Shown in pieces: positions 1-51,857 of a stretch of 64,000 nt of DNA; within the stretch, counting starts at the first letter, position 1; every line of letters starts with the position of its first letter. The notes below the pieces were generated by a model that did not search any database, was not told the origin of the DNA, and was given only the letters and a program-made list of their open reading frames with translations. This DNA comes from Hansfordia pulvinata (Eukaryota > Ascomycota > Sordariomycetes > Xylariales), in the NCBI GenBank assembly GCA_006538405.1, contig BJKQ01000010.1:1984001-2048000 (forward strand), written 5' to 3'. The translations under genes were made by a program, and so were the position numbers.

Positions 1-684
1 AACGAGCAGGGGCAAGGAAGAAGCTAGGCTTAGTGGGAACGCGAGGGTCCGACTGGGGAGCAGACGGGCGGAGGGCCAATGGCGCGGCTGCATTCGCTCC
101 GAATCGCCGAACCTGTGATTGGGTCGCCGGGGCCCTGTGACGACTAGAAAGATCGGAAAACGATGACACCTGCTGGGCAGAAGCTGCTGCTCGGGCGCAG
201 GGTTCCGATCCGGCGGTGGAGAGTGGAGAGTTGTCGAACGGAGGAAAACCCGCCGAACTGCCCTCGTCCCGAGGGGCGTCGTCTGTTCGGTGTCTCTTCC
301 GGATCGTGTTAATACTCGCACCCCTGCCCGAGACTGCCGTCGGCTTCACCCAGCCCATCGGGCTCCCGTCACATGCTCTCCATCCTGTCACAGACCTGAC
401 AGCATGTGCCAGATGCCACATACCGGCCAACCAACACCGATGAGCCGGTGACAGGTCGCCTTGACACACCCGCCGCGTCCGGAGCAGAGCAGCCGCCGCC
501 GGTGGAGACCGCCGTCCAGCGCTCCACCTGGATCCGCGAGAACGGCGGGGCGCGCAGGGCAGGGGAACGCCGATGGCTGCCCGCTCGAGCACGCCTGCTG
601 CGTGGGCGTCGAGGCCGAAGACGGAGGAGCACATCCCACTCCCGTGCGGCGGTCCGCACACTTTCTCCCTCGTGCCCCTGCTCC

Positions 685-693
685 TATATAAAC
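685..693 (+). promoter_or_regulatory. TATA-like box upstream of the MFS transporter gene
   Basis: TATATAAAC lies about 165 bases before the chosen start codon at 857, in otherwise GC-rich DNA. It is a plausible core promoter element for the transporter gene. Position and sequence are the only support. Confidence 0.4.
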
Positions 694-786
694 AAATCTT
701 TCCCCTGGCTGGCCCCTTGCTCCGAGCCCTCGTCCCCTGTTTGTCCATATCATCGGGCAACCCTCTGTGTTAAAAAGGGTCGTGTC

Positions 787-846
787 ATGTCGGACGAATG
801 CCAATGGCCTCCCATCTCTCGCTGCTCCCACCTGCCAAGTGAATGA
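787..846 (+). promoter_or_regulatory. Upstream open reading frame in the 5' leader of the MFS gene
   Basis: A 19-codon ORF with its own ATG and a TGA stop ends 10 bases before the main start at 857. If the leader starts near the TATA-like box, scanning ribosomes meet this ORF first, so it could reduce translation of the transporter. This is inferred from position only. Confidence 0.3.
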
Positions 847-856
847 TAGTATAATC

Positions 857-2617
857 ATGTCTTCCGCCGGTTCCAGTAGCCGCTCCCCGAGCCCCGGCTC
901 CCTCGAGGCCGGCCACAGAGCCTCGGCCGGCCACAGAGCCTCGGCCGGCCACAGAGCCTCGGCCGACCACCGCAAAGCCTTGGCCGGCGACCCCCGCGTC
1001 ACGGAGCGCGCCATGTCCGAGACCGACCGCCACGACTCGGTCAGCACCGGCCCGGACCACCACCGGCACACCGCGCCGGAGGACCCGCGCCACGCCGGCC
1101 CGTCCCACGACATCCGCCGGACCACGAGCAACGTCCTGCACAACGTCGCCTCGCGCCTGACGACCCGCTCCTGGGCCGAGCCCCCGCCGCCTCCCAACGG
1201 CGGCCGCGCCGCCTGGACCCAGGTCGCCATGGGCTGGCTCGTCATCTTCACCACGTGGGGCTACGTCAACTCGTTCGGCAGCTTCCAGGCCTACTACACC
1301 CAGACCCTGCCCGTCTCCGCCTCGGCCGTCTCCTGGATCGGCTCCGTCCAGATCTGGTTCAACCTCGTCATCGGCATCTTCTCCGGCCGCCTGCTCGACG
1401 CCGGCTACTTCTTCCCCATCTTCCTCGCCGGCGCAGTCATCCAGGTCGCCGGCATGTTCCTCATGAGCGTCAGCACCCAGTACTGGCAGCTCTTCCTCAC
1501 CCAGGGCGTCATCACCGGCGTCGGCGGCGGCGTCTTCTTCACCCCGGCCCTCGCCCTCGTCTCCACCTACTTCAGCGACCGCCGCGCCCTCGCCATCGGC
1601 CTCGCCACCACCGGCAACTCCGCCGGCGGCATCATCTACCCCCTCGTCGTCCGCGAGCTGCTGCCGCTCATCGGCTTCGGCTGGACCGCCCGAGTCCTGG
1701 CCTTTAGTGAGTCCTTGCCTACTAAGACCGTGCCTCCCGAGGCCGTCCCTCCCGGGGCCGTCCCTCCCGGGGTAGCCGCTGACCCTCGCAGTCAACCTGA
1801 CGTTCCTCGTCGTCGTCCTCGCCTTCATGCGCCCCCGCCTGCCCCCGCGCAAGTCCGGCCCCATCGTCGACTTTGCCGCCTTCCGCGAGCCCGTCTACGT
1901 CCTCCTCGTGAGCGGCCTGTTCTTCCTCATGTGGACAAACTACTACACCTTCTACTATGTGAGTCCCATGCTTCCCGGTGTCTTTGTTGCTTCACTGTGT
2001 CTTTGTGCTTGTGGTTGGGTGCTTTCTGCTTGCTTTCCGTCTTGCTAACCCCCCAGATCGCCTCCTACGGCCGCGACGTCCTCGGCCTCTCCTACTCCTC
2101 CGCCTCCATCCTCGTCATCATCCTCAACGGCTCCGGCCTGCCCTTCCGCGTCATCCCCCGCTCATCGCCGACCGCCTCGGCGTCATGAACGTCCTCATCC
2201 CCGTCACCGCCGCCTGGTGCGCCGTCGCCTTCTGCTGGCTCGCCGTCCGCGACGTCGCCGGCTACTACGCCTTCACCGTCTTCTTCGGCATCGCCGCCGG
2301 CTCCTTCCAGTGCCTGCTGCCCACCGCCATCGCCAGCATCACCGACCGCCTCGACAAGGTCGGCACTCGCATGGGCAGTGAGTCTCCCCACCCCCGCGTT
2401 GAGCCTGAGCCCCTCGCTAACCCTCGCAGTGGCCTTCGGCATCGTCTCCTTCTCCGCCCTCACAGGGCCCCCTATCGGCGGCGCCATCCAGGGCGCCAGC
2501 GGCGGCTCCTACTTCTGGGCCCAGATCTGGGCCGCCCTCGGCCTCCTCGTCGGCCTGTGCCTCGTCGTCCCCGCCAGGGTCGTTTATAAGGGCTGGAGCC
2601 TTAAGGCGAAGTGCTGA
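857..2617 (+). CDS. MFS monocarboxylate-type transporter, frameshifted in exon 3
   Basis: Exons: 857-1706, 1792-1958, 2057-2377, 2430-2617. All three introns have GTGAGT donors and CAG acceptors. The product resembles fungal monocarboxylate/MCH-type major facilitator permeases of the plasma membrane. The N-terminus is hydrophilic and carries three exact GHRASA hexapeptides. Transmembrane segments follow from about residue 115 (WTQVAMGWLVIFTTWGYVNS), and a loop motif near YFSDRRALAIGLATTGNSAGG is typical of the family. Exon joins are clean: 1706/1792 makes an Ile codon. In exon 3 the frame breaks at the C run around 2154-2158. The literal frame stops at 2188, while the next frame continues with family-like sequence to 2617. 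The summed exons are one base short of a multiple of three, so one extra C gives about 508 residues. It is either a sequencing indel or a recent pseudogene. The substrate is unknown. Confidence 0.8.
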
Positions 2618-2699
2618 TATCACGGGCGTAGTAAGAAAGGCAAGAGTAAGCAGCACGGGATAAGCCGCGGTTAAAAGGGGAGTTTAAGATAATAAGCTG

Positions 2700-5600
2700 G
2701 TTTTACGTGTAAAGAGTGAGATTATAAGCGTTTAATTTATAAGCCGAATTTGTAAGTAAAAAGAAAATTATAAGCCTTAAAATTATAAGCCGTTTTTATA
2801 AGAAAAAAGTGAAATTATAAGCTTTAAAATTATAAGCCGTTTTTACTTTTAAATAATAAAATTAAAAGCTTAAAATTATAAGATATTTTTATGAATAAAA
2901 AGTGTGATTATAAGCCTTAAAATTATAAGCCGTTTTTATTTATAAATAATAAAATTATAAGCTTAAAATTATAAGCCGTTTTTATAAGTAAAAAAGGAAA
3001 TAATAAGCCTTAAAATAATAAGCTACTTTTATTAATAAAAAGTAAATTTATAAGCTTTAGTATTATAAGCTTTTTTTATAAGTTAAAAAGAAAATTATAA
3101 GCCTTAACATTATAAGCTATTTTTATAAGAAAAAAGTAAAATTATAAGCTTAATATTATAAGCTATTTTTAAAAGTAAAATATAAAATTATAAGCCTTAA
3201 AATTATAAGCCGTTTTACTTATATATAATAAAATTATTACCTTAATATTATAAGCCGTTTTTATATATTAAAAGTGAAATTATAAGCTTATAATTAAAAG
3301 CCACTTTTATTAATAAAAAGTAAGTTTATAAGCTTTAATATTATAAGCTAATTTAATAAGTTAAAAAAGAAATTAGAAGCCTTAAAATTATAAGCTACTT
3401 TTATAAAGAAAAAGTGGAATTATAAGCCTTATAATTATAAGCTACTTTTAAAAATAAAAAGTAAAATTATAAGCCTTATAATTATAAGTTATTTTTACTT
3501 ATAAATAATAAGATTATAAGCTTTAAATTATAAGCTACTTTTTTAAAAAAAAGTAAAATTATAAGCTTTAAAATTATAAGCCACTTTTATAAGTAAAAAG
3601 TGAAATTATAAGCCGTTTTTATTTATAAATAACATAATTATAAGCTTAAAATTATAAGCCGTTTAAATAAGAAAAAAGATAAATTATAAGCTTAAAAATT
3701 ATAAGTTATTTCTATAAGTAAAAAATAAAATTATAAGCTTGATATTATAAGCCGTTTTTATATATAAAATATAAAATTATAAGCTTAAAACTTTTACGTT
3801 ATTATACAACTTAAATTGTAATTTATTTTCTTAAATAAAAAGCATTTAATAAGCCTTATATTATAAGCCGTTTTCATATATAAAAATCAAAAATATATAC
3901 TTAAAATTAAAAGCCTTTTTTTTCGTAAAAAATAAAATTATAAGCTTAAGATTATACGCTATTTTAATATATACGAAGTATAATTATAAGCTTAATATTA
4001 TAAGTTTTAATTATATATAAATATTAAACATGTAATACTTAAATTATAAGCCGTTTTTATAAAAAAAAAGTATAATTATAAGCCTTAAGTTTATACGCCT
4101 TTTATAAAAGTAAAAAGTAAAATTAAAAGCTTTAAAATTATAAGCTATTTTTACTTATATAAAATAATTTTATAAGCCTTGAAAATATTAGCCGGTTTTA
4201 CTTATAAATATTAAAATTATAAGTTTAAAACTATAAGCTATTTTTATATATAAAAAATGAAATTATAAGCCTTAAAATGATAAGTTACTTTTACAAGGAA
4301 AAAATTATAAGCTACTTTTATAAGTAAAAGATTATAAGCTATTTTTATATATTAAAAATAAAATTATAAGCCTTAAAATTATAAGCCTTAAAATTATAAG
4401 CCTTAAAATTATAAATTATAACTATAAAAGAAAAGTGAAATTATAAGCCTTTATTTATAAGCCTTTTTTATATATAGAAAATAAAGTTATAAGCTTATAA
4501 TTATAAGCCTTATTTTTATATAAAAAGTAAAATTATAAGCGTAGAATTTTAAGCCGTTTTTATATAATAAAAAGAATTATAAGCTTTAAAAATATAATAA
4601 GTTATTATAAAATAAAATAAGCTTTAAAATTGTAAGCCGTTTTTATATATTAAAATAAATGTTATAAGCCTTAAAGAAATAAGCCGTTTTTATATATAAA
4701 AAATAAGATTATAAGCTTAAAGTTATTAACCTTTTATATATTTAAATTCAAATTATAAGCCTTAAGAATATAAGTTAAGATTATAAGGAAAATAAAATAT
4801 AAGTTTTAATTTATAAGTCTTCTTATACATAAAAAGTGAAATTATAAGCTATAAAATTATAAGTCTTCTTTATATAATAGAATTAAAATTATAAGGTTTA
4901 AATTATAAGCCGGTTTTATCTATAAAAATTAAAGTTATAAGATTAACTTAATAAGTAAGTTTTACTTATAAAATTTAAGTTTATAAGCCTTAAATTTTTA
5001 ATCGTTTTTAATTTAAATGTAAAAAATAAATTTAAAAACTTTAATATATAAGCCGCTTTTACTTATAAAAAGGTATATTATAAGCTTTAAATTAAAAGCC
5101 CTTTTTATAAGTAAAAAGTGAAATTATAAGCTTATAATTATAAGCCTTCTTTATTTATAAAAATTGAAATTATAAGCCTTAAATTATAAGCCGGTTTTAT
5201 ACGTAAAAAGAAGTTTTATAAGCTTTAAATTATAAGCCGTTTTTATATTATAAAATTAAGGTTTAAAGCCTTAAATTATAACCTATTTTTATATATGAGA
5301 TTTAAAGTTATACGCCTTAAATTATAAGCCGTTTTTATATAATAAAAAGTAAGTTATAAGCCTTAAATTATAAACTATTATATATAAAAGCTTTAATATT
5401 ATAAGCCGTTTTTATATAATTAAAATTAAATTATAAGCTTTAAATTTTACGCCGGCTTTATAAATAAAAAAGAGTTTTATAAGCTGGAAATTATAAGCCG
5501 TTTTTATAAGTGAAAAGTTAAAATATAAGCTTTAAATTATAAGCCTTTTTTATACGTAAAAATTGAAATTATAAGCTTGAAATTATAAGCCTTTTTATAC

Positions 5601-5720
5601 GTTAAAATTGAAATTATAAGCCTAAAATTATAAGCTACTTTATATATATATATTAAAATTATTTACCTTAAATTATAAGCCGGTTTTATATATATAACTT
5701 AAGATTATAAGCTTAAGTTT
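2700..5720. repeat. Degenerate ~47-bp satellite array
   Basis: About 60 imperfect copies of a unit of roughly 47 bases follow one another. Each unit holds two ATTATAAGC cores joined by TTAAA and is followed by CGTTTTTATA and an A-rich tract such as AAAAAGTGAA. The spacing is clearest at 2760-3000, where successive units start 47-50 bases apart. Divergence rises toward 4000-5700. GCTTATAATTATAAGC palindromes occur where cores sit head to head. No coding capacity is visible. Confidence 0.8.
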
Positions 5721-5744
5721 ATTAAAATTAACTTTTATATTATA

Positions 5745-6545
5745 ATTAAAGCTACGCTGATTTTCTATCGTATATTGAATAAATACTTTAATAATAAAGT
5801 TATTTTAAATTAAATATATTTACCTCACCGTCGGCGTTTATTAAAAATAAGTCTTTTAATACTTATAAAGTTAAAAATAAATTTAATTATAATAAGAACA
5901 GTTATTTTAAGTCTTATTCTTATCTTTATATAATAAAGTAATAATAAAGATCTTTTTAATTTACCCGATTCATTTAACCACCGGCCTTTACTTTTATTTT
6001 ACTTTTTAATATTAATATAAATAAAATTTAATTCTATTATAATAAAAGAAGCTGTGCTGTATTATGCTTTTTACTTTCTTTATAAGGTAATAATAACTTG
6101 TTATTAAATGCTTTTCATTTATCCGATTATCGGCGTCTTTTTATACTTTAATTTAATATCTTATATAAAAATAAAAAAAGCTTTTATTATAAATAAATAG
6201 CTGTATTAAATTTTATTTATGTATTTAACTTATCACTTAATAATAACTTTTAAATAATGTTAATTAATTTATCCGACCGCTGGCGTTTTTAAGTAGTTAA
6301 TTATAAATATTATTCCTTTTAAGATATATAAAAAAATTTAATATAAGAGCTGTGTTAAATTCTCCTTCCTTATTGACTTTATACTTAACTTTTTTAATTA
6401 AATAATAAATCTTGATTTTTTTAACCAGCGGCGTTATTTTATAGTTACTTTTCAATAATATTATTTTAATTTAAATCAATTTTTAAACTTTTACGTTTTT
6501 TTAAAAAAAAAATGAAAAAGTCTTATAAAATTAAAGAAGCTCTGT
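5745..6545. repeat. Second satellite, ~150-bp period, left block
   Basis: Five to six diverged units start with AGCTGTGCTG-like sequence (near 5745, 5895, 6048, 6200, 6350). Each carries a conserved core of the form TTTATCCGACCGNYGGCG about 75 bases in; cores lie near 5822, 5967, 6120, 6262 and 6422. The period is about 143-157 bases. The retained CCG/CGGC islands in AT-rich DNA are the clearest markers. Confidence 0.65.
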
Positions 6546-6549
6546 AGTA

Positions 6550-9310
6550 ATATTATTATAAGATTAAGTATTTCAATTTTTAAAGTATAAGTTTTATACT
6601 TTAAGCTTAAGTTTTTTTATGATTTTAAGTTTTAAAAACTAAGATTTTACTTAAAACGTAAAATATTAAAAATCGATTATTTAAATATTTATTACGCTTT
6701 AAAAATTTTCAGATTAAATAAAAGAATGAAATTTAATAATTTTTTTCACGTTATAATTAAGGGTATATAAAGCTATTATAACTTTAAGTTAATTTAACTT
6801 TTTTAAAATTAAAATAATTTAAACTTAATATTCTTTAAAAGACGAAGAAAAATGATAATTTATATTTATAATAAAAATATAATATAAGTAGATTTTAATT
6901 TTATTTATAAAAGTACGTATTAAAATAAATATATAAAGTTAATTTCTTATAAAAGGATTCACTTATAAATTCGTATTATTAAAGTATTTTTTTATTTTTA
7001 TTTAATAAACTTAAGTTTTTTAAAAAGTGATATTTAAATAATATTGAATTATTATATTATTACAGCTTATAGAAACATAAGGTTTAATATTAATTTATTA
7101 AAGTCTTTAAGATAAAACATATTTACTTATATAAATAAATATAAAAAGTTTTAAGTATTAATTTAAAAAATAAAAGCTTAAAACGTTTATAATTATAAAT
7201 ATATAATATTATATTATAACTTTATTATTAATATATATAACTTAATACGTAATAAGGATTATTATTCTTATATAATAACGTTTATATTAATTATTAAATA
7301 ACGTATTTATTAATCGGACCTTCGAAGGAATTATTAATTAAGTTATATAAAGTATAACGTTTATAAAGGGTAAATATATACGTAATACGTAATAATATTA
7401 ATATTGCTTATTTTATTATAATATCTTATTTATAAAGCCGTATAAAAGGATTAATTAATATATAAGTTAAGCCGTGAAGGCGGTTAACTTAACACTCGCG
7501 GGTATTATTTACGGCCGTTAAGGTTAATAAATTAAATTAAAATAAGCTTAATCTTAACTTACGTAATTAAGCGCGTAAAAGTCGCGCGTATAAAAGTAAA
7601 ATTAATAATTATAATTAAAGTGCATTTAATAAATAAAATATTTATTAATAAAAAGTATGTTTTTAAAACAGTTTTTAAGCCTTTTATCTTATAACGTATT
7701 TAAAGTCTTTTACACGATTTTATTTTATTATACTTAACTTAAATAATAACGTGTATTTTAAAAACAACGGTATTACTTTAATTTTTACGGTAAAAATTAA
7801 ATTTCTGTTTTTATAAAAATTAATTATTTATTAATAAAAAGTATGTTTTTAAAACAGTTTTTAAACCTTTCATTTTATAGTTTATTTAAAACCTTTTATA
7901 CGATTTTATTGTATTATATTGAACCTAAATAACAACGTGTATTTTTAAAATAACGGTATTACTTTAAATTTATTAATAAAAGATAAAGTTCTGTTTAAAA
8001 GTAAATAATTACTTAAAACGTAATTATATATATTCTTAAAAGCTAAGTATTTATTTAAAGCTATAATATAAGTTTCTTTATTAAACGTATAGATAAAGTT
8101 AAATAATTCTTTTTTAAGAAATATTATTAAAAATATTTTAAGAAATTAAGTTTTATTTTAAAAACATATTTATTATTAATGTTTAACGTGACCGTAATTC
8201 TTACTTATTCAACGTTAAAGTTAATAGTTATTTCTAATTAAAAGTAATTTATATTATATTATATTATTATATATAATATAATTTAAAATAAATATTAAAA
8301 TAAAATTTTATTTTAATTAAAGTTAATTTGAAAAGTAATATATAAGCTTTAATAAAAGAAGTTTAATATAAAGAACGTTAAGATTTATTTTTAAGAATTA
8401 TTCTCTTTATATTAATTAAAACTTATTTTTAAAATTGTCTTATAATTTAAAAACATTTATATTACTTAAATTTTCACGGTAAAAATTAAATTTCTATTTT
8501 AATAAAAATATATTATTCATTAATAAAAAGTATGTTTTAAAAATAGTTCTTTAATTCCTTTTTTTATAACGTATTTAAAGTATTTTATACAATATTATTT
8601 TTTTGACATTAAACTTTAATAATAACGTGTATTTTTTAAAAATAACGATACTACTTTAAATTTACCGGTAATGATTAAAGTTCTGTTTAATAAGAAATAT
8701 TTCTGAAAAACGTAGTAAAATATATATTAAAAAGCTTTATACTTAGTAAAAACTATAATATACGTTTCTTTATTTTCAACGTAAAAATATAATTTAATAA
8801 TTCTTTTAAAAAATATTTTATAAAATTTAATTTCATTTTTATATTATGTTTATTGTTTTTAAAATTTATTTAAATTTACCGTTCTTAAAAACAGCTTTTT
8901 AAAACTTTAAATACGCTTTTATTAAGGAATACCTTTTAAAAGTAAGCTTTATCTTTATTTTTATATCTTTAATAAGCAGGTTAATAAACTCGTTGCTTAT
9001 ATTAGTTTATATTATTAACTTTTATATTACGTATTATAATACGCGCTTCATATATATAACGTATTTAAGCGTGTAATTAAGTAAATACGGTGTTTAATCT
9101 TTAAAACGTGACATTAAGTAATAATTTAAGTAACGTATTTAGTATAAAGCACGATAAGTGTTATACCGTGTTATAAAGGGTGTTTTTAAAGTAATTTTAG
9201 GTTATTCAAAGGCTGTTTTTATTAATTATTGTGGTAACCGGCTTACGTAAAGACCGCTTATTTATGCCGCGTTTATCTTATAAGGTCTTCCTCGTTAAAC
9301 TTTTAATATA
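6550..9310. mobile_element. Highly degraded insertion, probably a RIP-inactivated transposable element
   Basis: This interval lies between two blocks of the same ~150-bp satellite and lacks that repeat. Mutation has removed any coding frame. Around 7465-7505 a less mutated stretch (GCCGTGAAGGCGGTTAAC, then TTAACACTCGCGGG) could be an LTR-type terminus, but no matching partner was found. Two sets of internal direct repeats occur at 7645-8710. Calling it a mobile element is inference from position and the RIP signature; the class is undetermined. Confidence 0.35.
7645..8760. repeat. Internal imperfect direct repeats in the AT isochore
   Basis: A block starting AATAAAAAGTATGTTTT and running about 160 bases to a motif like GGTAAAAATTAAATTTCTG occurs near 7647, 7832 and 8523. 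Copies one and two are about 185 bases apart and copies two and three about 690. A second shared block (AAAAGCT...ACGTTTCTTTATT...AATAATTCTTTT) occurs near 8037 and 8732, at the same ~690-base offset. This indicates an old segmental duplication of about 0.7 kb in addition to a short tandem copy. Confidence 0.6.
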
Positions 9311-9314
9311 TAAT

Positions 9315-9590
9315 AGCTGGGTGAGATTTTTATATTATTTAAAGTAAAATAATAACTTATTAAGCGATATAAAATTTCTCAATTTATCCGACCGGCGGCT
9401 TTTCTTAAACTTATACTTTCAAAGTTTTCTTTTATTTTAAGTGTAAATCTTACATTATAACTACTGGGCTGAATTTTCGTAACGCAATGAATATATAAGC
9501 GATTAATTAAGCCGTGCTGAGTTTCTCGATTTATTTGACCAGTGGCTTTCACTGTAATCTTTTTTAAAAGTAGCGCTGTAAGCGTTTCCG
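9315..9590. repeat. Second satellite, ~150-bp period, right block
   Basis: Two units begin with AGCTGGGTGA (9319) and TACTGGGCTGA (9462). Their cores TTTATCCGACCGGCGGCTTT (9383) and TTTATTTGACCAGTGGCTTT (9529) match those of the left block at 5745-6545. The last unit is the least mutated and runs into normal GC-rich sequence. Confidence 0.6.
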
Positions 9591-10295
9591 CAGCCTTCTC
9601 GCGGTGCGCGTGCAGGGGCAGGTGCGCGCTAAGGAAATTGCCGGTGCAAACTGGGAATTCCCGGTATAAGCTAACTTCACCACTCTGCCCACCCAAATCC
9701 GACCCGCACTGATCTTTGCACGCGCACCCATCACCATTCCTGGATTGGCTGGTGGGCTGGCGCTCGGCCACGTGCAAACGGCGCCTCCGCGACGTCTCCG
9801 TACGAGCGGCAGCCGTTGAGGTGCAGTTTACGGCGCGACCCCGATCGGCCGAGAGCAGAACGCCGCCGAGCTGCAGCAATGTAACGGCGGTGGCTTTTTT
9901 TTTGGATCAAGGCTCTTAGTAGGCCCGGCATGGCAGGCAACGACTGCGCCCAGCTGTGCCAATCCTCAGCTGGCAGCTTGGCCAAAGCCTCAGCCGGGGA
10001 TTGCGCTTACTGGGCGGCCAGTCGAGGGGAGGCTTCGCGGGACTTCGCTCACGTGTGGCTAGTAATGCCAGTAAGGTGCGAGTAACACGCTCCAGGAGGC
10101 GGAAATGCCCCTGGCCGTATCCAAGCCGGTTGGAAATGCACAACGAGCTGATGCCAATGGGAGCAGGCGGTTGGCCAAGACGCAGCTCGGCGCAGATCTA
10201 CAGCAGAGATGCGGCGAAGCGGTCGGCTCTGTAAGACTTACTGCTTCCTGCTAGACGGCCATGGCAGACACAGTCGGCGAAGAGACGTGCGCGGG
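9591..10295. other. Intergenic, no gene supported
   Basis: GC-rich sequence between the AT isochore and the promoter of the cystine-knot gene. Short open frames on both strands lack recognisable motifs and overlap each other. They look like chance frames in GC-rich DNA. Confidence 0.5.
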
Positions 10296-10352
10296 GAGAC
10301 GCTCGTGGAGACGCTCGTGGGAGACGCTCGTGGGAGACGCTCGTGTATAAAG
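10296..10352 (+). promoter_or_regulatory. Four-copy 12-13-bp promoter repeat followed by TATA box
   Basis: GAGACGCTCGTGG is repeated four times without interruption at 10296-10345. TATAAAG follows immediately at 10346-10352, about 118 bases before the start codon of the secreted cystine-knot gene at 10470. Such repeats next to a TATA box could be a clustered binding site for a transcription factor. The role is inferred from position. Confidence 0.5.
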
Positions 10353-10469
10353 ACGCGCGACGATGCCGCCGAATCGACTCTTGCTTTTGCTCGACATCCG
10401 CTCAACTACCATCTTCACAGCTTCTTGACTACCTTCAAGACCCACAATTCTTGCTCTTCCATCTTCACC

Positions 10470-11857
10470 ATGCAGTTCTCTCACATTGTGTCTCTGGCCA
10501 TCGCCATGGCCGCCGGCGCCGAGGCCGCCGGCAACCTGTTCGAGCCGCGTGCCTGCATCGCCGACGGCGGTAAGTTGCCCGCCAGCGTCCCGTTGAGCTC
10601 CTCTGACTGACCCCGCAGACAACGGCTGCGACCTGAGCGGCAACAACAACTGCTGCTCCGGGATCTGCAACAAGCCCAAGGAGTGGAAGTACGGCATTTG
10701 CGAGGCTAAGGGGGACGACCGCGAGCAGGCGAACGGCCCGGCCAACCCGTTTGGCGCCCAGTCCTGCATCCCCGACGGCGGTAAGTCAAGTTGCCCGCAG
10801 CGCGCCGGAGAGCTCATCTGACACCCGCAGACAACGGCTGCGACCTCAGCGGCACCAAGAACTGCTGCTCGGGCAACTGCGAGAAGCCCAAGGAGTGGAA
10901 GTACGGCATCTGCGTGACCAAGTCCATGCTGAAGGTCCAGGCGAGCTGCATCGCGGACGGCGGTAAGTTGAGTTGCCAGGCAGCGCGCCGGCGAGCCCAT
11001 CTGACACTCGCAGACAACGGCTGCGACCTCAGCGGCAACAACAACTGCTGCTCGGGCAAGTGCAACAAGCCCAAGGACTGGGAGTTTGGCATCTGCGAGG
11101 CCAAGAGCGCCGCCGAGGCCCAGTCCGACGACGAGCACAAGCACAAGCACAAGCGCCCTCACCACCACCCCCACCACCACCACAACGGCACCATGCCCGG
11201 GCACCACGGCGGCAAGGGCCACGGCAAGGGCGACGGCAAGGGCGACGGCAAGGGCGACGGCAAGGGCAAGGGCGGCAAGGGTGACGGCGAGGCCTCCCTC
11301 GACGCCCAGTCCACCTGCATCGCTAACGGCAGTGAGTGGTGACAATGCCCACGGCGCCTCTGAAGCTGATGCTGACACTCGCAGACAACGGCTGCGACCT
11401 GAGCGGCAACCACAACTGCTGCTCCGGCTTCTGCGACAAGCCCGCCGGCTGGAAGTACGGCATCTGCAAGCCCAAGAGCGCCGCGGCCTTCGGCGCCCAG
11501 GCCAGCTGCATCGCCGACGGGGGTGAGTGTCCCCGACGACCGCCGCCCGGCCCCGGATCGGATGCTGACCGGATACAGACAACGGCTGCGACCTGAGCGG
11601 CAATAACAACTGCTGCTCGGGCATCTGCAACAAGCCTAAGGACTGGGAGTTTGGCATCTGCGACACCAAGAGCGCCTCTCTCTTCAACACCCAGGCCGCC
11701 TGCATCCCCACCGGCAGTGAGTCTGGACACCTTGGCCTCGGGGAGCGATACTGACGCGTCGACAGGCAACGGCTGCGACCTGAGCGGCAACCACAACTGC
11801 TGCTCCGGCAACTGCGACAAGCCCAAGGAGTGGAAGTACGGCATCTGCAAGAAGTAG
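10470..11857 (+). CDS. Secreted protein with six tandem cystine-knot (knottin-like) modules, seven exons
   Basis: Exons: 10470-10569, 10619-10780, 10831-10962, 11014-11331, 11385-11522, 11579-11716, 11766-11857; product 359 residues. Residues 1-20 are a signal peptide ending AEAA. Six copies of a six-cysteine module follow, with fixed spacing C-x7-C-x7-CC-x3-C-x10-C and core motifs NGCDLSG, NCCSG and W-x-x-GIC. In copy 1 the cysteines are at 29, 37, 45, 46, 50 and 61. The C-C-CC-C-C order is that of inhibitor-cystine-knot folds. Between modules 3 and 4 lies a linker with His-rich (HKHKHK, HHHPHHHH) and Gly-Lys-Asp repeats. Every intron is phase 1, 49-56 nt, and lies between Cys1 and Cys2 of a module, so each internal exon carries Cys2-Cys6 of one module plus Cys1 of the next. 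The role is unknown: effector, antimicrobial and wall-associated functions are all possible. It lies 0.9 kb from the AT isochore. Confidence 0.85.
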
Positions 11858-12188
11858 GCCGGCGGGTTCTGTACACAGCGAGGGGTTTCTTCGCCACGGC
11901 GTTAGGGTATGGAGGTTCGGGTTTGGTGGCGTCTGGCGGGGCCATCTGAGTGGCGGAACTCTCTGCTTGCTGTCTGGCGGGACCATCTTTGATGGCGTTT
12001 GAGTCTGGCGGAAGTGTCTTGGTTGCATGTGGCGATGGCGGCCGCTGGCCGGTCGTCAGCCACGAGTCTGGTGTACGAAGGAGCACATTGAATTCAGATT
12101 GTTATTCCACCTTTCCATGACCTGGTGATCGACAGCAGAGACCGTTGGTGCCGGACGGTCCGTAGGGTTGGACTAGTCACGGTGGTGA

Positions 12189-12282
12189 TGCCGGGGCGGA
12201 AGAGCCCGACTTGTGGTGAGGCTGGGCGGGAGAGCCCGACTGTGGTGAGTCCGGGGCGGGAGAGCCCGACTTGTGGTGAGGG
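12189..12282. repeat. Three-copy ~30-bp tandem repeat
   Basis: GGGCGGRAGAGCCCGACT followed by (T)GTGGTGAG occurs three times in a row, separated by CTG or TCCG spacers. No function is apparent. Confidence 0.7.
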
Positions 12283-13286
12283 TTCACAGGCGGCCACGAC
12301 AGCCCACGGGAAAGGCGCCGCCGCGGACTCGGTCTTTCAGACGGGGCCGGAAGCCGAGTCTCGGCGTGGGCCCGCTGGCGGCCAGTCGAGTGGCTGCCCA
12401 AGCAACGCCCAGCCGGGAGATCGCCACGGCCAGGGCGTCGTGTCACCACTCGTGGCAGCAGCTTGTTGGGTCCGCTGACGGAGGCCACCAACGCACAAGC
12501 TGGCGTGGGTCTTGCCTCGTCGGCCATCTGGCGAAGGAGGCTGAGGTGGGGTGGCCGCGACGACAGACGCTGCGTGACGGCGCGTACTGACAGTCGATTA
12601 GCGCCAGAGCTCAGGCCTCGAAGCCCCAACCCCTGCCGTACCTGGGTTTCAACCCCCGCTCACCGGCGGATCAGGCATTGACACCGCCAAGTGCGTCATT
12701 TGTTTGGTTCAGGGTCTTTGTTGACTGCTCTCCCAGCAACGGGCGCCCCAGCCAGTCCCAGGGTCGCCAGTTGCGAGTCCTGGCCTGCGCGACTCGGCGG
12801 CACCGACAGCGGATGGCCGCGGCAATGAGAATGGCCGCGGCAATGAGGGACAGCCGCCACACTGAAGGACTATAGCCGCCGCAGTCAAGGACTATAGCGA
12901 TGCGGGGACCGTTTCATAGGCGCTTCAGCGGGATCGCGACTTCCGTCTGTCGAGCTGGGGAATTAAACATCTTGCCAGTTTCAGAGCGCAGACTCTAAAT
13001 CGCTCCTGCCCCAGCCTGCGGCGGCTCAGCACGGATCCCCCCGTATGGGTACCTTTGCTAGCGCGCCCCTCACGCCCGAAAAGAAGTCGCTGTACCGGTT
13101 GGATACGAGGCGAGGTACGGGGTACGGCAGGGGTCTGGACCCGCCCCACACGGGACGGTGGTTCTCGTGGCAACGGGGCCCTATCGAATGTAAATAAAAA
13201 AAGGGATGGCTGGGTGACGCATCACGGCCAAAATGCGGATGGCAGGGCCTCGACCGCACCTCTGCACCTCGCGCTGTACCACCTCC

Positions 13287-13347
13287 ACCGCACCGCACCG
13301 CCCGCACCGCCCGCACCGCCCGCACCGCCCGCACCGCCCGCACCGCA
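13287..13347. repeat. CCCGCACCG minisatellite
   Basis: About six to seven copies of a 9-base unit (CCCGCACCG), preceded by shorter CACCG repeats. Low-complexity DNA within an intergenic region. Confidence 0.8.
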
Positions 13348-14131
13348 CACGCTCGCGCACGGGTACACGCCGCCGCCAGCCTACTCGTACGAGGACTCGC
13401 TCCCGCTCGCCGATTGACACCGACTTGTCCCCTTTCACTTACACCAACCTCTCCGATTCTCCCGACGAGGCTTCGCTGCCACCACGCTGACGTACCGCGC
13501 CGCTGCAAACCAACGAGCAAAAGGCCTCTCCCTCACGAGCCGAGCGAGACGCAGACCAGATCCTGCCAACCCTCCCATCTGTCTCCCTGCCGTTTCTTCT
13601 CGTCCCGTGACCTCGACGGTGATTCTGGGCCATTGCCGTCGACTGGACCACCTTTACTCCTAAGTTTCAACCTCCTCCTCCTCCTCACCTGACCTTGCCT
13701 CTGCTCGTCACACCTCATCTCACCACCTCATCTCACTTCTCCTGCACCGACAGCACCTCACCGCACCACCACCACCTCGCCGTCCTGTTGCGCTCCAGAT
13801 ATTGATCTTACAGACAGACGAAGCGTCGCAAACCGAGAGATTGGGCAAGAAAGAGATTGGAAACGACAGGAACCGGAATCAAGGGCCAGGGCTTCTTATA
13901 TCGCATCCGATCGCCTCGCATTCCAGCCGTCGACACCGCGCCAGCTACCACGAGGCGTTCCACGGGAGCATTCCAACACTTGACGAGGGCATTCCAACGC
14001 TCGCGACGACACGCCCCTTCGCCCACCACGAGCACGGAGTGGGTGAACCGCACGACGCTCAGGGTTCTCGCCCGCCACACGCCTTGCTGGGCAAGACACA
14101 GCACATCGCGCCTTCACAGTAAACCGCCGCC

Positions 14132-15140
14132 ATGCCGGAGAGATTCGAGATTGGCTTCGCACGTGAGTCCGGCCTGCCCGAACGCATCTTCCCAGACAGC
14201 AGCTGACGATCTCAGGGTTTGTACCATTTCTGGGCTACCACCATGTGTTGATGATCTTGATAGCAGTCACCATCATATTACTATGTAAGCCGCCCTTCAC
14301 CCGAGTCCAGCCTCGTCCGAGCCAGGCCTTCTCCTCCCCCGAGCCCGGCCTCCTCCTCCCCCGAATCCCGCTGACCCGACCCTTACAGCCCTCCTGCTGG
14401 CCGGCTGCTCGTCGTCGTCGCCCCTGATCCCCGACATCTTCCTCCTCTCCCTCTACTACGAGCGCTACACGGCGGTGCCCGACACGTCGCAGGTCGACTA
14501 CAACGTCAACCAGGCCATCGGCAACATCGTGGGCGGCGCGCACCTGCAGGCGCGCGTCGGCTACTTTGGCATCTGCATCAACCCGGACGGCGGCTCGTGG
14601 CTGTGCAGCAACAACGCCACCGCCCTCGCCAACGAGATCTCGGTCGACCAGGACCCCCTGAACCTCGTCTGGCTGGCCAGCCAGTTCAAGGACATGATTG
14701 TGTTCCCGTATCTGATGTAGGTTTTTCCCCGCCGTCCTCATCTCGTGACTTCGCTAACCTAACCCCCCAGCATCATCGCCATCATCTTCGCGTTCGTGTG
14801 CTTCCTCCTGCTGGCCACGTTCCCCGGCTGGCACGAGGAGGAGGACAGCGAGGGCTCGGAGCGCGACGTCAAGCCGTTCCCCAGCCGGCCCGTGTCGCAG
14901 ATCGCGCTGGCCATCATCTTCATCGCCACCGTCTTCGTGCTCGTCTCCGTGCTGTGGCAGCATACGGCCTCGGTGGCCGCCAGCATCATCGCCCAGGACT
15001 TTGGCAACGGCAGCGTCATGAGCGGCATCGGCACCAGCGCCATGGTCCTCGGCTGGTTCAGCTTCGCCCTGCTCATCATCGTCACCATCGGCTTGCTCGT
15101 CATGATCCTGAGCATCAACGTGCTGCGGGAGCTGGTATAA
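14132..15140 (+). CDS. Fig1-like four-span membrane protein (calcium regulator / mating cell fusion family)
   Basis: Exons: 14132-14162, 14216-14284, 14389-14716, 14771-15140; product 265 residues. All joins keep the frame. Four hydrophobic segments are visible: one near the N-terminus (FVPFLGYHHVLMILIAVTII), one after IVFPYL, one around QIALAIIFIATVFVLVSVLW and one around FSFALLIIVTIGLLVMIL. Between spans 1 and 2 is a long extracellular loop with the Fig1 family signature, GYFGIC followed by SWLCS. In yeast and Neurospora, Fig1 proteins support low-affinity calcium influx and membrane fusion during mating. That role is transferred from the family. The tiny first exon (10 codons) is supported by a good donor at 14163 and by the frame of exon 2. 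Family assignment rests on topology plus the cysteine motif. Confidence 0.8.
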
Positions 15141-16106
15141 CGGGGGGAAGTGCTGGGAATTTGAGAAGGAACACGCCCGCCCCAATGCCCGATTTTACCC
15201 CATTTGATTGCTTCAGTTCTGTTTTTTATACACTTGAGAAGGGAACATACGTCGAGGGCGATGAGCCTGTAATGCGCCACTGGGAAATGACGGGAAACGC
15301 GGGGCACTTTGGTATCACAACTTGTACATGGAAGACGACGACACGAGGGGAGGGACGCACGCCGCGCCGCGCCGGCTCTGCGCTCGCACACCAAAGCATC
15401 TGGGACCGGAGTTACACCACAAAGAGGAACGGATTCTGCCGACAAGGCACTTTGATTTTAGGAATTGACAGTATGAGACCATCTGATCATCTGCCGTGAC
15501 TGTACGTGACTGTACGTGACTGTACGTGACTGTACGTGACTGTACGTGACTGTACGTGACTGTACGTGACTGTACGTGGGTGAGGACTGGTCGTTCAGAC
15601 CAACTGCCGGTTATTTTGGGTACAAACAGCCGCAGCAGGCGTTGGAGGCGTTCAAGACGAGCACGGCGGAGGTCTAATCTTCAACAGGGACAACAAGCAA
15701 AGACCTGAATTCAGGGGGCCGTACTCTTAACACGGAGGCGCGCCTCTCGGTGTCCAAGACATTGTGTGCGTGCCTGAGGTGCTGACCGTGTCGAATCCCG
15801 ACTTGGCTGTCAAAGCCCTCGGCCACCATATCGACACCCCGGGCTGGCCGGGATGTTGTCGAGGTCGCCGATCACTGGAAGCCAACGCACCCTGCAAGTT
15901 AGGTAGGGATGGTATTCCATAAACTTAGTACGCGAGCACCTACTATAGGGCTGCGCCTCAGATAATTCCAATCTTGACGTTGCCACCGCCAACGTACGGC
16001 CTGAGGCCGATGTAGACGCGTTCGTTTCCTCTCGGCGCGGCCGATCCAGACGTGTTCGTCTTCTCTCGGCGCTCCGCGCAGCCTGCTTTCTGCGCTTCGG
16101 GCGGTC
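15141..16106. other. Intergenic, with a 10-bp tandem repeat
   Basis: Contains the 3' flank of the Fig1-like gene and the upstream region of the next gene. No coding sequence is supported. The notable element is the GTGACTGTAC array at 15496-15578. Confidence 0.5.
15496..15578. repeat. Perfect tandem repeat, (GTGACTGTAC) x 8
   Basis: Eight exact copies of the 10-base unit GTGACTGTAC run without interruption about 360 bases downstream of the Fig1-like stop codon. The perfect identity suggests recent expansion. Confidence 0.9.
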
Positions 16107-16114
16107 TATAAATC
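16107..16114 (+). promoter_or_regulatory. TATA box upstream of the orphan membrane protein gene
   Basis: TATAAATC lies 111 bases before the start at 16225, a usual fungal distance for a core promoter. Confidence 0.45.
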
Positions 16115-16224
16115 GAAGCCAGCTGGCTCTCTGAAGATGAAGATCCTCCTTGTTCCAGCTCACCCATCGACCCCCCTCAGCTTCGTCTTCGCCCCCAGTC
16201 CATCGCAACGCGACAGCCGCAGCC

Positions 16225-16962
16225 ATGAAGATTTCCCCCTCATCCATTGGATACTTGTCCATCCTTCTCGCCCTCGCGGGAGTCTTTGGAGCTCCGGCGA
16301 GGGAGGGGGAGATTGCACGACCCCCTAATGCATTTCTGGCACCGGAGAGACAGCCGGCGGAGACAGAGAGACATGGGTGGACCCTCTCCAGCGTAGGCCA
16401 GCTCGACCCGGCGGCCGACGCGTACAAATATGTGTTGCTGCATGGCAGTGCCAGTGAGGCCAAGTTCGCCCCGGGAAGCGGGCTTTTCGACCCGGAGACT
16501 ATCGAGTTCGCCGAGCACGCGTTGGTAGAGGCCTCCCCGAGTTTCCCACTGGACCCGGACATCACTACGAGAGGGCAGAACGGCCAGACCACCACGGGGG
16601 ACCTGAGACTCATGAAAGGTGTTGGCGGCGAGATCTCAAAGCTGAAAGAAGGCATGGACAAGCTGAACCATCTCCTCAAGAGGGCGGGCGAGTCGGACGC
16701 CATGGAGTTCATGAAAATGGTCGCGCAGAGGATCGGAGACGGCTTGAGAGCCGCGGCGAGAGGGGCAGCTTGGGGCCTTTACAGGGGCCTTTACAAGCTT
16801 ACCAGCACCAGAGGGGGCTGGGTGGCCATATCCACGGGAATGGTGGCCCTGTGCATCACGATCATTTTCACTAGTGGAGTGAGCGCTGGGGGGATCATCG
16901 GGCTCGGAGTCTTCGGGTTCTTTTGGGTGGCGCTGGCGACCTTACTGACGGTAGGACGTTAG
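16225..16962 (+). CDS. Hypothetical secretory-pathway protein with C-terminal membrane spans
   Basis: Single exon, 245 residues. The ATG at 16225 was preferred over the in-frame upstream frame because it starts directly with a signal peptide (SSIGYLSILLALAGVFGA, residues 6-23). A hydrophilic domain of about 170 residues follows. It ends in an amphipathic helical stretch (EISKLKEGMDKLNHLLKR, then an Ala/Arg-rich segment). The last 47 residues hold two hydrophobic segments (WVAISTGMVALCITIIFTSG and GIIGLGVFGFFWVALATLL). There are almost no cysteines, so it is not a typical cysteine-rich effector. I do not recognise the family. A membrane-anchored protein of the secretory route is the safest reading. 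Confidence 0.65.
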   Translation: MKISPSSIGYLSILLALAGVFGAPAREGEIARPPNAFLAPERQPAETERHGWTLSSVGQLDPAADAYKYVLLHGSASEAKFAPGSGLFDPETIEFAEHALVEASPSFPLDPDITTRGQNGQTTTGDLRLMKGVGGEISKLKEGMDKLNHLLKRAGESDAMEFMKMVAQRIGDGLRAAARGAAWGLYRGLYKLTSTRGGWVAISTGMVALCITIIFTSGVSAGGIIGLGVFGFFWVALATLLTVGR

Positions 16963-20124: not shown

Positions 20125-22856
20125 CGACAGGCAGACCCTTGTGTAGCCGATGTGCGCGAGAATGTGGGTGGTTGTGGAGGCGCGCTGACTAGGGATCCAG
20201 ACACACACCCACTTGCCCGTCGTCTGGATGGATCTCTGCGTCCATCTCCTCACACAGACGGTCAGTCCGACAGACAGATACTCGTAGATAGCATGGCGCG
20301 CCGCGGTAGATTAGCTCCCTCACATTGCCCGCAGCCTACCCACGTCCCACCCTAGCTCGTAGGCGCATCCCCGCTCGGCTTTCGGTCTGCTCCGTAGGTT
20401 TAGGCCCACGCTGGGCCCTGTAAAGGCCCCCCGGCCGTCTGCGTCCCTGGAGGGGTTGCTCCAATGAGGCTGGCTTTCCCGCGTGGGAAACGCCTCGCCA
20501 CCGCGTCCGGGGTGGCCCACGGCCAGAGATAAGGTGGTCAGGCAGAGGCGAAAGCGCACACCGAGGGGGATGCCATGGCTGCACGCTGAGATGGCCTGGA
20601 TAGAGACCTCGGCGCCGTCGACATCTTCGTCGCCGACATCTTTGTTGCCGACATCTTCGTCGCTCGGGCGTCGACCGCACGTCCCCGTCTCCCCACGAAG
20701 CACAAGCCGCAACCGGCACTCGGGCGGCGCAGACAAGGGATCTGGCGCAATCTGGGGCAGAGCGGCAGTCCAAGCCCGGTGGGCCGTCGTGGCGACCTTT
20801 TGCCGAGCGGTGTTCTGGACGATACGCAGCAGCCAGCCCAGGAACCAACAGGCAGAGGCCGGGGTGCCCCAGGCTGCTCGTAACCCAGAGCCAGAGCCGT
20901 CCGCCGTCCGCCGATCCTCGACACCCTCCCATCTTCCCCGTACTTTGTACGTAATCGACTGCGAGCCACCAGCAAGCGTCTTTGGTCACACCAGCGTCTT
21001 TGGCCGCATCCTCGACGGGGACGGCGAGCCGGTGACTTGACTCGACCTGAATCAAGCTCCGCACAGGCCAGCCTCCCCCCCCCACACCACGCCACACCGC
21101 GGGCGAGCGGCGAGGGCGCGGGTGGGCTCTCGCTCTGCTACTGATAGGCAGGGCGCGGCCGGGCCTCGCGGGCCTCGCACCAAGATAGGGGCCTTTCGCG
21201 GGGAAACTAACACCTTCCGCTTCTAGCCCCAGCCCACTTGGACAGGCGGGTGGTCCGTCGTCCAGGCCCTGCCTGCATCCCTGCCTCCGTGTCTGCCATG
21301 CCTTTTCCTTGGGTGTCAGGCACAGCCGAGACTCCAGCACCCCGCCGGCTCGGCCATCAGACTGCCTTTCCCATTGCCTGATGCCGTCCTCGAGCAGGTG
21401 ATCGAGTTCGAGAAGGCGAGTTCGAGAAGGCGAGCAGGCTTCCATGCGTCCCGCGTCCCTCTGCCATAATCCAATCCGGATGGCCAGGCTCTCCGGCGGC
21501 TGTCTCGGCCGGTAAGCAGGGTTCATGCGGGCCGCGCACACGAGCATCCTATTTCTTCAACCAATCTGGACGTGTCGTGCTGTGCCTGTGCGGATTGAAC
21601 CGGTCGAATTATGGATTTACATCTCCGTTATCGCGATGAGACAGGCACAATGACGCTCCTGGTGAAAGGCCCTGGGTACCATGATAGAGAATCCATCACG
21701 ACGCCTCCTCCGGCGTGTGGGGTCGTCGAAAGGCCTGGGGAGGCGGCAAACCACGGCACAAGCCATCGACTCGTATGGCTGGCTCGTTTTAGGCGGCGCT
21801 CGCACGCTGCTGACGAGGCTGCGTCCTCCGTAGAGCGGCCAAGATTTCTGTTGCGAATTAGGCCCATCTGGTCATGGCGTCCGGTTGCGGCATGCCGGCC
21901 GTCGATCCCGGCAAGCGTGTTTTCTTTGCCCGACGCAACCCGAACCGTGGGAGCTGACGGCGCCGCAAGGCCAAGCCACAGGCCCGTGCCGTGTCGTCGA
22001 GACGCGGCCAGGCCGTCGATTGGGCCAGTAATAGGAGGAGGCGCGTTGTCTCGACGCGCCAACACCATCGTCTATCTATCTGCGGCTCCTTCGCGGCAAC
22101 TGTCGCGCGGCTTGTCGCGGTCCCTCTTCGCATTTGTGGCCCTGCGACGGCGGTGGCCCTGCGCGGCGGTGGCCCTGCGCGGCGGTGGCCCTGCGCGCGA
22201 TGGCGCAATTCTGATCTATACGGTTGAAGCTCGTGGTGATGAGCCGGGGCGAGCCGAGGGTGTGCCGCGCCGAATCTGGTGATACTGATGAAGATGGCAA
22301 TTATCCACGGCCGATAGAGACGAGTGGCCTATCTTGATCTGTGGATTCCCTGTTAGACACTGCCATCTGTGAGCAAATCAACCCCTTACCTGCCTGGTCT
22401 ATGCTCTGTCGTATCCTCCCGCTCATGTCGACTCCGAGCACCGGCCCATCTCCTCAGGCCGACGTCGACGTCGAACAACGTCAAGATCGATGGCGGCGAG
22501 CCCACCCGTGGCCCCACGACCCCGAACCAGTGTCAGTGCGTCACGATTCTTGTTACTAACACGTCTCCGTCTTGACGTGTATCTATCCCACTCCCGCCCA
22601 TCATACGAGTCCACGCATGCCTGCGCTTGAATCCACTCGATCCGGGCCGATGTCTACCCCAGAATATGGTCGACTGCGGGGTGACACATTTGTCCTCGCA
22701 GTCCACGTCGTGGCCGGGTGTCTCCCCGCTTCAAGTTTACCGGCCATAGAGCTCACAGGGAGCCAACTCACGCCCGTCTGCTGACTTCTGGGTATCATGT
22801 TGTCATTCGAGTCTAATCTTCTGTCTTTTGGCGGCCGAAGCCTACTTCCCCGATGC
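19517..22856. other. Long intergenic region, no gene supported
   Basis: About 3.3 kb. The longest open frame (20336-21547, minus) is Arg/Gly-rich, lacks domains and contains nucleotide-repeat artefacts such as ATKMS repeats. I treat it as a chance frame in GC-rich DNA. Repeats present: CAG triplets at 20091-20123, a CTTCGTCGCCGACAT repeat near 20625-20665 and a GGCGGTGGCCCTGCGC repeat near 22150-22200. Confidence 0.45.
20091..20123. repeat. (CAG)11 microsatellite
   Basis: Eleven uninterrupted CAG triplets in an intergenic region. Confidence 0.9.
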
Positions 22857-51004: not shown

Positions 51005-51161
51005 GAGAGCCACATGGCCGTGGAATCTCGTCAAGGGGCCTGGCCTGGACAGACCTCTCGAGACCCCTCGGCAGCTGCTTCTGCTCCCTCTCAGCCTCTT
51101 TCCCACACACAGCCTCAATCTCATCCCATCAGACTCTTTCTAGTACAATACAAAAGACGAA

Positions 51162-51857
51162 ATGCTCCGCCACGCAGCACTCGGGCTCGCCGCGCTGGCC
51201 GCCTCGGGCCTCGCCTCGCCGCTCGACCTGTACAAGAGCCTGCTGGAGCCGCGTGCCGGCATCAACGGCACGCTGGAGTTGCGAAGCGTGTCGCCCGGCG
51301 AGGGGACGGACAACGGGTACTTCTACTCGTTCTGGACCGAGGGCACGGGCACGGTGACGTACAACAACGGGGCGGGGGGCGCGTACGACGTGGCGTGGAG
51401 CGACGCGGGCAACTTCGTGGCGGGGAAAGGGTGGAAGCCGGGCTCCGAGTCGCGGGTGGTGGGCTACTCGGGCACGTGGGACGCGGCGGCGGTCAACTCG
51501 TACGTGTCGCTGTACGGGTGGACGACGGAGCCGCTGGTCGAGTACTACGTGGTCGAGAGCTTCGGGTCGTACGACCCGAGCTCGGGCGCCACCAAGATCG
51601 GCTCCGTCGACTCGGACGGCGGGTCGTACGCCGTCTACAAGACGCGGCGCACGGGCGCGCCGTCCATCATCGGCACCGCCGACTTTGACCAGTACTGGAG
51701 CGTCCGCCAGACGCACCGCCTCGGCGGCGACATCACCGTGCAGAACCACATCGACGCCTGGCGCGCCGCGGGGCTCGAGCTCGGCACCTTCGACTACCAG
51801 ATCCTCGCCGTCGAGGGGTACCAGAGCAGCGGCAGCGCCGCCATCACTGTGAGCTAG
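51162..51857 (+). CDS. Endo-1,4-beta-xylanase, glycoside hydrolase family 11
   Basis: Single exon, 231 residues. Residues 1-19 form a signal peptide ([18 protein letters not shown]), and a short propeptide may end after LLEPR. The mature domain is a complete GH11 jelly-roll: [56 protein letters not shown] with the nucleophile Glu127, and [14 protein letters not shown] with the acid/base Glu218. The residue aligned with the known pH-determining position is Asn84 (AGNFV), as in neutral/alkaline GH11 enzymes; acidophilic ones have Asp. It has no carbohydrate-binding module. It hydrolyses the beta-1,4-xylan backbone outside the cell. The gene has no intron and very GC-rich third positions. One N-glycosylation site (NGT, residue 36) is near the mature N-terminus. 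Confidence 0.95.

Follow-up and report, generated by a model that had tools for sequence, protein, structure and literature searches.

How does a fungal gene come to encode six cysteine-knot modules, each interrupted by an intron at one and the same codon, and does this arrangement serve splicing or record how the gene was built? The question is raised by positions 10470-11857 on the forward strand of the window, by which we mean the whole 64,000-nucleotide stretch of Hansfordia pulvinata contig BJKQ01000010.1 that was analyzed. We favor the explanation that the locus is a spliced gene, found at a single place in the genome, encoding a secreted six-knottin protein, with splicing, secretion and fold all being predicted. 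For this explanation as a whole, including the origin and the use proposed below, we estimate a probability of about 0.72.

Gene model

The model at 10470-11857 (+) comprises seven exons, which join into a 1080-nt frame of 359 residues plus stop. Its features, together with a presumed promoter upstream, are as follows.

10294..10345 (+): 13-bp tandem repeat, 4.1 copies, presumed promoter (Tandem Repeats Finder)
10346-10351 (+): TATAAA directly 3' of the 13-bp repeat, presumed promoter (read directly)
10470..10569 (+): exon 1, 100 nt; signal peptide (by eye), short stretch ending FEPRA, Cys1 of module 1
10570..10618 (+): intron 1, 49 nt, phase 1
10619..10780 (+): exon 2, 162 nt; Cys2-Cys6 of module 1, linker, Cys1 of module 2
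10781..10830 (+): intron 2, 50 nt, phase 1; resembles intron 3 beyond the splice signals
10831..10962 (+): exon 3, 132 nt; Cys2-Cys6 of module 2, linker, Cys1 of module 3
10963..11013 (+): intron 3, 51 nt, phase 1; the only one of six whose retention leaves the frame open
11014..11331 (+): exon 4, 318 nt; Cys2-Cys6 of module 3, 73-residue linker, Cys1 of module 4
11097-11315 (+): linker of exon 4, 73 residues, rich in His, Gly, Lys and Asp
11332..11384 (+): intron 4, 53 nt, phase 1
11385..11522 (+): exon 5, 138 nt; Cys2-Cys6 of module 4, linker, Cys1 of module 5
11523..11578 (+): intron 5, 56 nt, phase 1
11579..11716 (+): exon 6, 138 nt; Cys2-Cys6 of module 5, linker, Cys1 of module 6
11717..11765 (+): intron 6, 49 nt, phase 1
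11766..11857 (+): exon 7, 92 nt; Cys2-Cys6 of module 6, KK, stop

Exon 1 is placed by the splice model and by a homologue, P0001, that runs to the same donor context. All six predicted introns are of the GT-AG class, 49-56 nt long and in phase 1, and they split the same codon (D, N or S after C-I-x-x-G) between Cys1 and Cys2, in agreement with the original prediction. Each has a GT(A/G)AGT donor and a CAG acceptor, with a CTGAC whose first base lies 13-16 nt before the 3' end. When a strict splice motif of our own devising (GTRAGT-N20-45-CTGAC-N3-14-YAG) was run over both strands of the 64-kb window, it matched eight times on the plus strand and four times on the minus strand, and six of these 12 matches are exactly the introns of this gene; 500 dinucleotide shuffles of 10470-11857 gave no match.

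The five internal exons (162, 132, 318, 138, and 138 nt) are all multiples of three and 1-1 symmetric, as had been claimed, and the exon unit is indeed offset from the folding unit, with the boundary falling between Cys1 and Cys2 in each of the six modules. Retention of intron 1, 2, 4, or 6 would bring in a stop and that of intron 5 a frame shift, while intron 3 would be read through in frame.

Protein and modules

The protein starts with a hydrophobic stretch (MQFSHIVSLAIAMAAGAEA), taken by eye as a signal peptide, and the chain that follows this region consists of six modules of identical cysteine spacing, then KK and the stop. The predicted module spacing, C-x7-C-x7-CC-x3-C-x10-C, is borne out exactly in all six modules of the spliced frame, and the 36 cysteines of the protein are divided as six per module. 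Pairwise identity between modules is 24-32 of 33 residues, modules 3 and 5 being the closest pair (32 of 33), and the net charges of modules 1 to 6 are -1, -1, -2, 0, -3, and 0. The gene has a GC3 of 0.96. Pooled pN/pS between modules is 0.49, a value drawn from module pairs that are not independent; dN equals or exceeds dS in four of the 15 pairs, which counts against our preferred explanation.

Copies in the genome and relatives

The source genome (46.8 Mb in 63 contigs) was the eukaryote genome searched for relatives. In protein searches at E up to 10, which scored only the best candidates and ignored introns, so that distant paralogues could escape, a composite of module and linker gave six matches, exon 1 gave one, and the Cys2-Cys6 segment of a relative gave six, all of them on this gene. 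A genome pattern search with the CC-x3-C core was discarded as too loose (8639 forward and 8205 reverse matches). Pattern matches in prokaryote genomes (151) and viral contigs (59) included none that was confirmed as a relative, and no relative was found in the plasmids and phages searched; these sets thus give no sign of bacterial or viral spread.

Searching with the full-length protein brought up 4849 word-sharing candidates and no match at E 0.001, which is weak evidence for the absence of annotated full-length relatives because the simple-repeat linker perhaps consumed words in the search. Smaller queries found three relatives: P0001 through a one-module chimera (E 7.4e-8), and P0002 and P0003 through a four-row profile of module pairs (E 1.6e-6 and 9.7e-6). 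P0001 is the homologue of exon 1 and reads on beyond the same CIADG donor context. Its MQF is preceded by a stretch containing ETLVYKD; by eye, the same string can be read in a frame upstream in the window, and since it is common to both, P0001 is probably a close sibling of the window gene. The presence of ETLVYKD in P0001 also suggests that part of the region upstream of the gene, around the 13-bp repeat, is conserved in the sibling.

P0002 and P0003, both unannotated, each carry one module behind a signal peptide similar to that of the six-knottin protein, with net charges of +1 and 0 over Cys1-Cys6 (hand count, insert left out). The insert in question adds 20 and 19 residues, respectively, to the x7 spacing that separates Cys1 from Cys2 in the window, and it matches between the two proteins at eight of 20 residues, the remainder at 46 of 52. 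Read from the protein letters, it appears to be a read-through phase-1 intron of 60 or 57 nt at the same site. At its start, the Cys codon T|GT is followed by K-F or T-Y (GTAAGTT-like, or GTACNTA); a later K-L-T (AARCTNACN) has the shape of a branch site; and at its end P-A or L-A (AG|CN) provides an acceptor AG two bases 5' of the AAC codon. Removal of the insert leaves C-L-P-N-G-S-N-Q-C, which shows the x7 spacing and, like module 6, has Ser in the position of the split codon.

Origin of the six modules

The gene contains six in-register copies of a 147-nt repeat, introns included, and Tandem Repeats Finder reports two arrays that span introns, at 10764-11105 (period 183, 87% matches) and 11364-11850 (period 194, 76% matches). 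We compared the intron cores in all 15 pairs after trimming the splice signals, using 300 mononucleotide shuffles per pair. Introns 2 and 3 (z 6.9) and introns 1 and 2 (z 3.1) are alike beyond their signals, and the pairs 2/4 (z 2.4) and 1/3 (z 2.1) are marginal. The other 11 pairs have z below 2, so that introns 5 and 6 are assigned the common origin by their position and phase and by the similarity of the exons. The closest modules are 3 and 5, whereas the closest introns are 2 and 3, and units have therefore perhaps undergone exchange or conversion.

The scarcity of common sequence beyond the splice signals in those 11 intron pairs would also fit an introner-like history, in which introns were inserted later and independently at a repeated proto-splice site of an intronless six-repeat gene. 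We consider such insertion very improbable, given that introns 2/3 and 1/2 do resemble each other beyond the signals, that the period-183 array takes in intron sequence at 87% matches, and that the intron is apparently present in the one-module relatives before any duplication.

The six modules most likely arose by tandem copying of a unit bounded by introns, and the offset between exon and fold is probably older than the duplications, since a phase-1 intron apparently occupies the same site in P0002 and P0003. The history would have begun with a secreted one-module knottin gene in which a phase-1 intron already separated Cys1 from Cys2. The unit formed by the intron, Cys2-Cys6, the linker and the following Cys1 would then have been duplicated in tandem repeatedly until there were six modules, and exchange or conversion between units, together with growth of the His/Gly/Lys/Asp linker in exon 4, would have shaped the rest. 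We regard the offset of exon and fold as a by-product of duplication, its effect being that any unit can be cleanly gained or lost.

What is new here is that single-module relatives appear to carry the intron in the same place and phase. The offset is real, but given the apparent intron of P0002 and P0003 it looks inherited and not peculiar to this gene. The family seems to offer three stages, namely a one-module gene with the intron, a duplicated unit that keeps intron likeness, and a six-module product. Domain multiplication by intron-bounded exon units is best known in animals, and the locus provides a clean, readable fungal case.

Exon symmetry and splicing

The original prediction had further proposed that any internal exon can be removed or duplicated with the knots left complete, and that the locus could therefore yield proteins of one to six modules. 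The first part holds as arithmetic: all 15 possible skips of contiguous internal exons preserve the frame, with one to five whole modules remaining. This is also what would be expected of an exon-cassette gene, in which internal exons would be left out by alternative splicing and a single locus would yield proteins of one to six knottins, and the near-identical junctions would allow any donor to join any acceptor. However, duplication alone accounts for the symmetry, and in a survey of 23 fungi skipped exons made up 3% of alternative-splicing events, compared with 61% for intron retention (PMC3925392), and its authors propose intron definition for fungi. On these figures, exon skipping is unlikely as a normal output of the gene. 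The arithmetic behind the second part thus stands, while its splicing inference is weakened, and we consider a cassette function improbable. The symmetry was most likely used in evolution, through tandem duplication, as argued by the repeats that include introns (period 183, 87%) and by the likeness of introns 2 and 3 (z 6.9).

Genomic setting and RIP

The gene begins about 1 kb downstream of an AT-rich island with fairly sharp edges. RIP indices were computed per 500-base bin over positions 1-14000 as TpA/ApT and (CpA+TpG)/(ApC+GpT), for which the usual cut-offs are above 0.89 and below 1.03, respectively. All 14 bins from 2501 to 9500 look RIP-affected (TpA/ApT 1.19-1.53; (CpA+TpG)/(ApC+GpT) 0.18-0.66), and none of the four bins spanning the gene (10001-12000) passes the cut-offs. 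Among the 14 bins of 1-14000 outside the island range, two pass as well, both GC-rich (1501-2000 and 13001-13500); the indices alone are thus not specific, and the case for RIP rests on low GC. C5 DNA methylases are expected in RIP-competent fungi, and the genome has two regions with strong matches to this family (E 2.7e-29 and 3.4e-26) and a third with a weaker match (5.6e-8). The island and the two strongly matching regions are located as follows.

2600..9450 (no strand): AT-rich island, mostly at GC about 0.16 versus about 0.62 elsewhere in the window; RIP-type indices
G000:C10:617861-618403: C5 DNA methylase region L025, candidate DNA methylation/RIP machinery
G000:C5:3105319-3105852: C5 DNA methylase region L026, candidate DNA methylation/RIP machinery

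The repeat units of the gene are spaced at 183, 187, 194, 212, and 371 bp, the last including the long linker, and RIP, the mutation of duplicated DNA, has been reported to act on duplicates over 400 bp that are at least 80% identical (PMC3828140). With all spacings below this minimum, an effector- or defense-type gene may have amplified its domain intragenically to six copies and so escaped RIP, the gene as a whole remaining at one locus next to the RIP-like AT island, a reading that is based on a single locus and that we hold to be rather doubtful. If it were true, exon symmetry would be a means for a RIP-competent genome to amplify a domain, and would give a testable answer to how fungi that punish duplication multiply useful secreted domains.

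The surroundings of the gene were characterized by Pfam searches of 16 window reading frames, eight of which had matches: an MFS transporter, GH47, a zinc alcohol dehydrogenase, an Ariadne-type RBR ligase, an XPG-type nuclease, MAM33, a trichothecene-3-O-acetyltransferase-like transferase and a GH11 xylanase. The frames 14375-15496, 15813-16778, and 16141-16959, between the knottin and GH47 genes, had no Pfam match, nor had frame 20339-21556, and Rfam gave nothing in the window at gathering thresholds. The GH11 xylanase frame (51144-51854) has SLLEPRA after its hydrophobic start, resembling FEPRA of the knottin gene, and the two are possibly a common processing motif. Two further tandem repeats were recorded, one of 30 bp at 12182-12280, with 3.3 copies, some 325 bp beyond the stop codon of the knottin gene, and one of 10 bp (CGTGACTGTA) at 15495-15578 (8.4 copies, 100% matches).

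Processing and function

Most inter-module linkers are 11-21 residues long, and modules 3 and 4 are separated by the 73-residue His/Gly/Lys/Asp linker. Four of the five linkers are without KR, RR, KK, or RK, and the sole inter-module dibasic site is a KR at residues 178-179, in the exon-4 linker. We therefore propose that the chain stays intact: the protein would be exported via its signal peptide and remain one chain, with the modules strung along it in two sets of three.

Kex2-processed repeat proteins are a known class, and the repeated cysteine modules in a secreted chain, that single KR and a possible processing end at FEPR|A, of a type known as a fungal processing site, are features that a polyprotein precursor cut into six free knottin peptides would also have. 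With four linkers lacking any dibasic pair, we judge such release of free peptides unlikely.

The long linker itself could be the working part of a structural or metal-binding secreted scaffold, its His-rich, GKGD-rich sequence being held by the knottins as stable anchors. Of the 15 His in the mature chain, 13 (hand count) fall in this linker, and its DNA contains a 12-bp tandem repeat (11210-11292; Tandem Repeats Finder). Yet it is the modules that are alike (24-32 of 33 residues), whereas the linker is a simple repeat of a kind that can arise by drift, and the one-module relatives are without such a linker; a scaffold role is, to our mind, slightly less probable still than release of free peptides.

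Returning to the intact chain, we consider it most likely, as part of the overall explanation, that the protein functions outside the hypha, where it would be a stable molecule that binds a repeated target multivalently. Such a target could be an enzyme or the surface of a microbe or host, and the mode of action would resemble that of antifungal knottins or of effectors with a knottin fold. The net charge of the modules, 0 to -3, disfavors a simple cationic membrane mechanism. A single-chain six-knottin would also be of practical interest as a stable multivalent scaffold.

Comparison with known systems

Six Pfam matches of the full protein (MgrB, LbR_Ice_bind, UPF0506, SelP_N, JmjN, and ZrgA), all under cut-offs, were dismissed as chance. 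The predicted knottin fold would have disulfides 1-4, 2-5, and 3-6 through a ring. An AlphaFold prediction of P0003 with P0002, both carrying the apparent intron read-through, had a mean pLDDT of 46.4 and is thus a low-confidence model.

By sequence, the nearest protein of solved structure was ALO3, the knottin-type antifungal peptide of the beetle Acrocinus longimanus. In a profile search, ALO3 (1q3j, positions 1-33) was the only PDB match below E 0.05 (E 5e-4, with a composition bias of 14.7 bits), and phmmer with one module gave ALO3 at E 0.0015 and bidentatide at E 0.017. One module aligns with ALO3 over its full length with the six cysteines in register, and the two have NGC, NCCSG, W, and G-x-C in common. 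This weak sequence match suggests that the modules are ALO3-like knottins, which we treat as a lead owing to the high bias. ALO3 is a single 36-residue peptide in which basic residues outnumber acidic ones (three against none in positions 1-34), whereas here six neutral to acidic modules lie in one chain. Cationic charge is typical of antifungal knottins of the ALO3/PF11410 type; in place of such a surface, the modules have net charges of 0 to -3, which weakens an antifungal reading given that ALO3 is basic. ALO3 has itself been discussed as a product of horizontal transfer, being present in numerous plants and, on the animal side, in this beetle (PMC6406012).

Plant antimicrobial knottins (PAFP-S; Pfam PF11410, Antifungal_pept) have the same cysteine order and CC-x3-C core, but are single-domain peptides, unlike the six-module chain. 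The PDB match to 1dkc, which we take to be PAFP-S, was weak and non-significant (E 2.1). At E up to 1, modules 1 and 6, P0002, and P0003 had no match to any Pfam-A family, PF11410 included, and PF11410 run over the source genome, a search in which the spliced modules are not read, gave nothing over the cut-off and three sub-threshold matches elsewhere. In view of this lack of a profile match, we do not file the gene as a PF11410 member.

Among fungal proteins, Avr9 and the Histoplasma "Fungi1" knottins are likewise small, secreted and built on a six-cysteine knottin motif, but they are described as having one C-terminal motif (PMC4503680); our module was compared with them by description only. 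The claim that no fungal family of this build has been described agrees with the open-licence literature, sampled in part, in which none was found.

The nearest precedent found for tandem cysteine-rich domains arising by exon duplication is nasonin-2 and nasonin-6 of the wasp Nasonia, which have four to five such domains in one chain without processing signals, like the six-knottin protein, and are attributed to exon duplication with phase-1 introns, so that tandem domains and phase-1 introns recur here (PMC2853521). Their authors consider a structural role tied to oligomer-like membrane permeabilization, or protease inhibition by some of the repeats. The nasonins are insect proteins of the defensin fold, unlike the fungal knottin modules, and each domain of nasonin-6 corresponds to one exon, whereas the exon boundaries of the six-knottin gene all fall within domains (six of six). 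Overall, the comparison points to ALO3-like knottin modules that were probably multiplied within one fungal gene by intron-bounded duplication.
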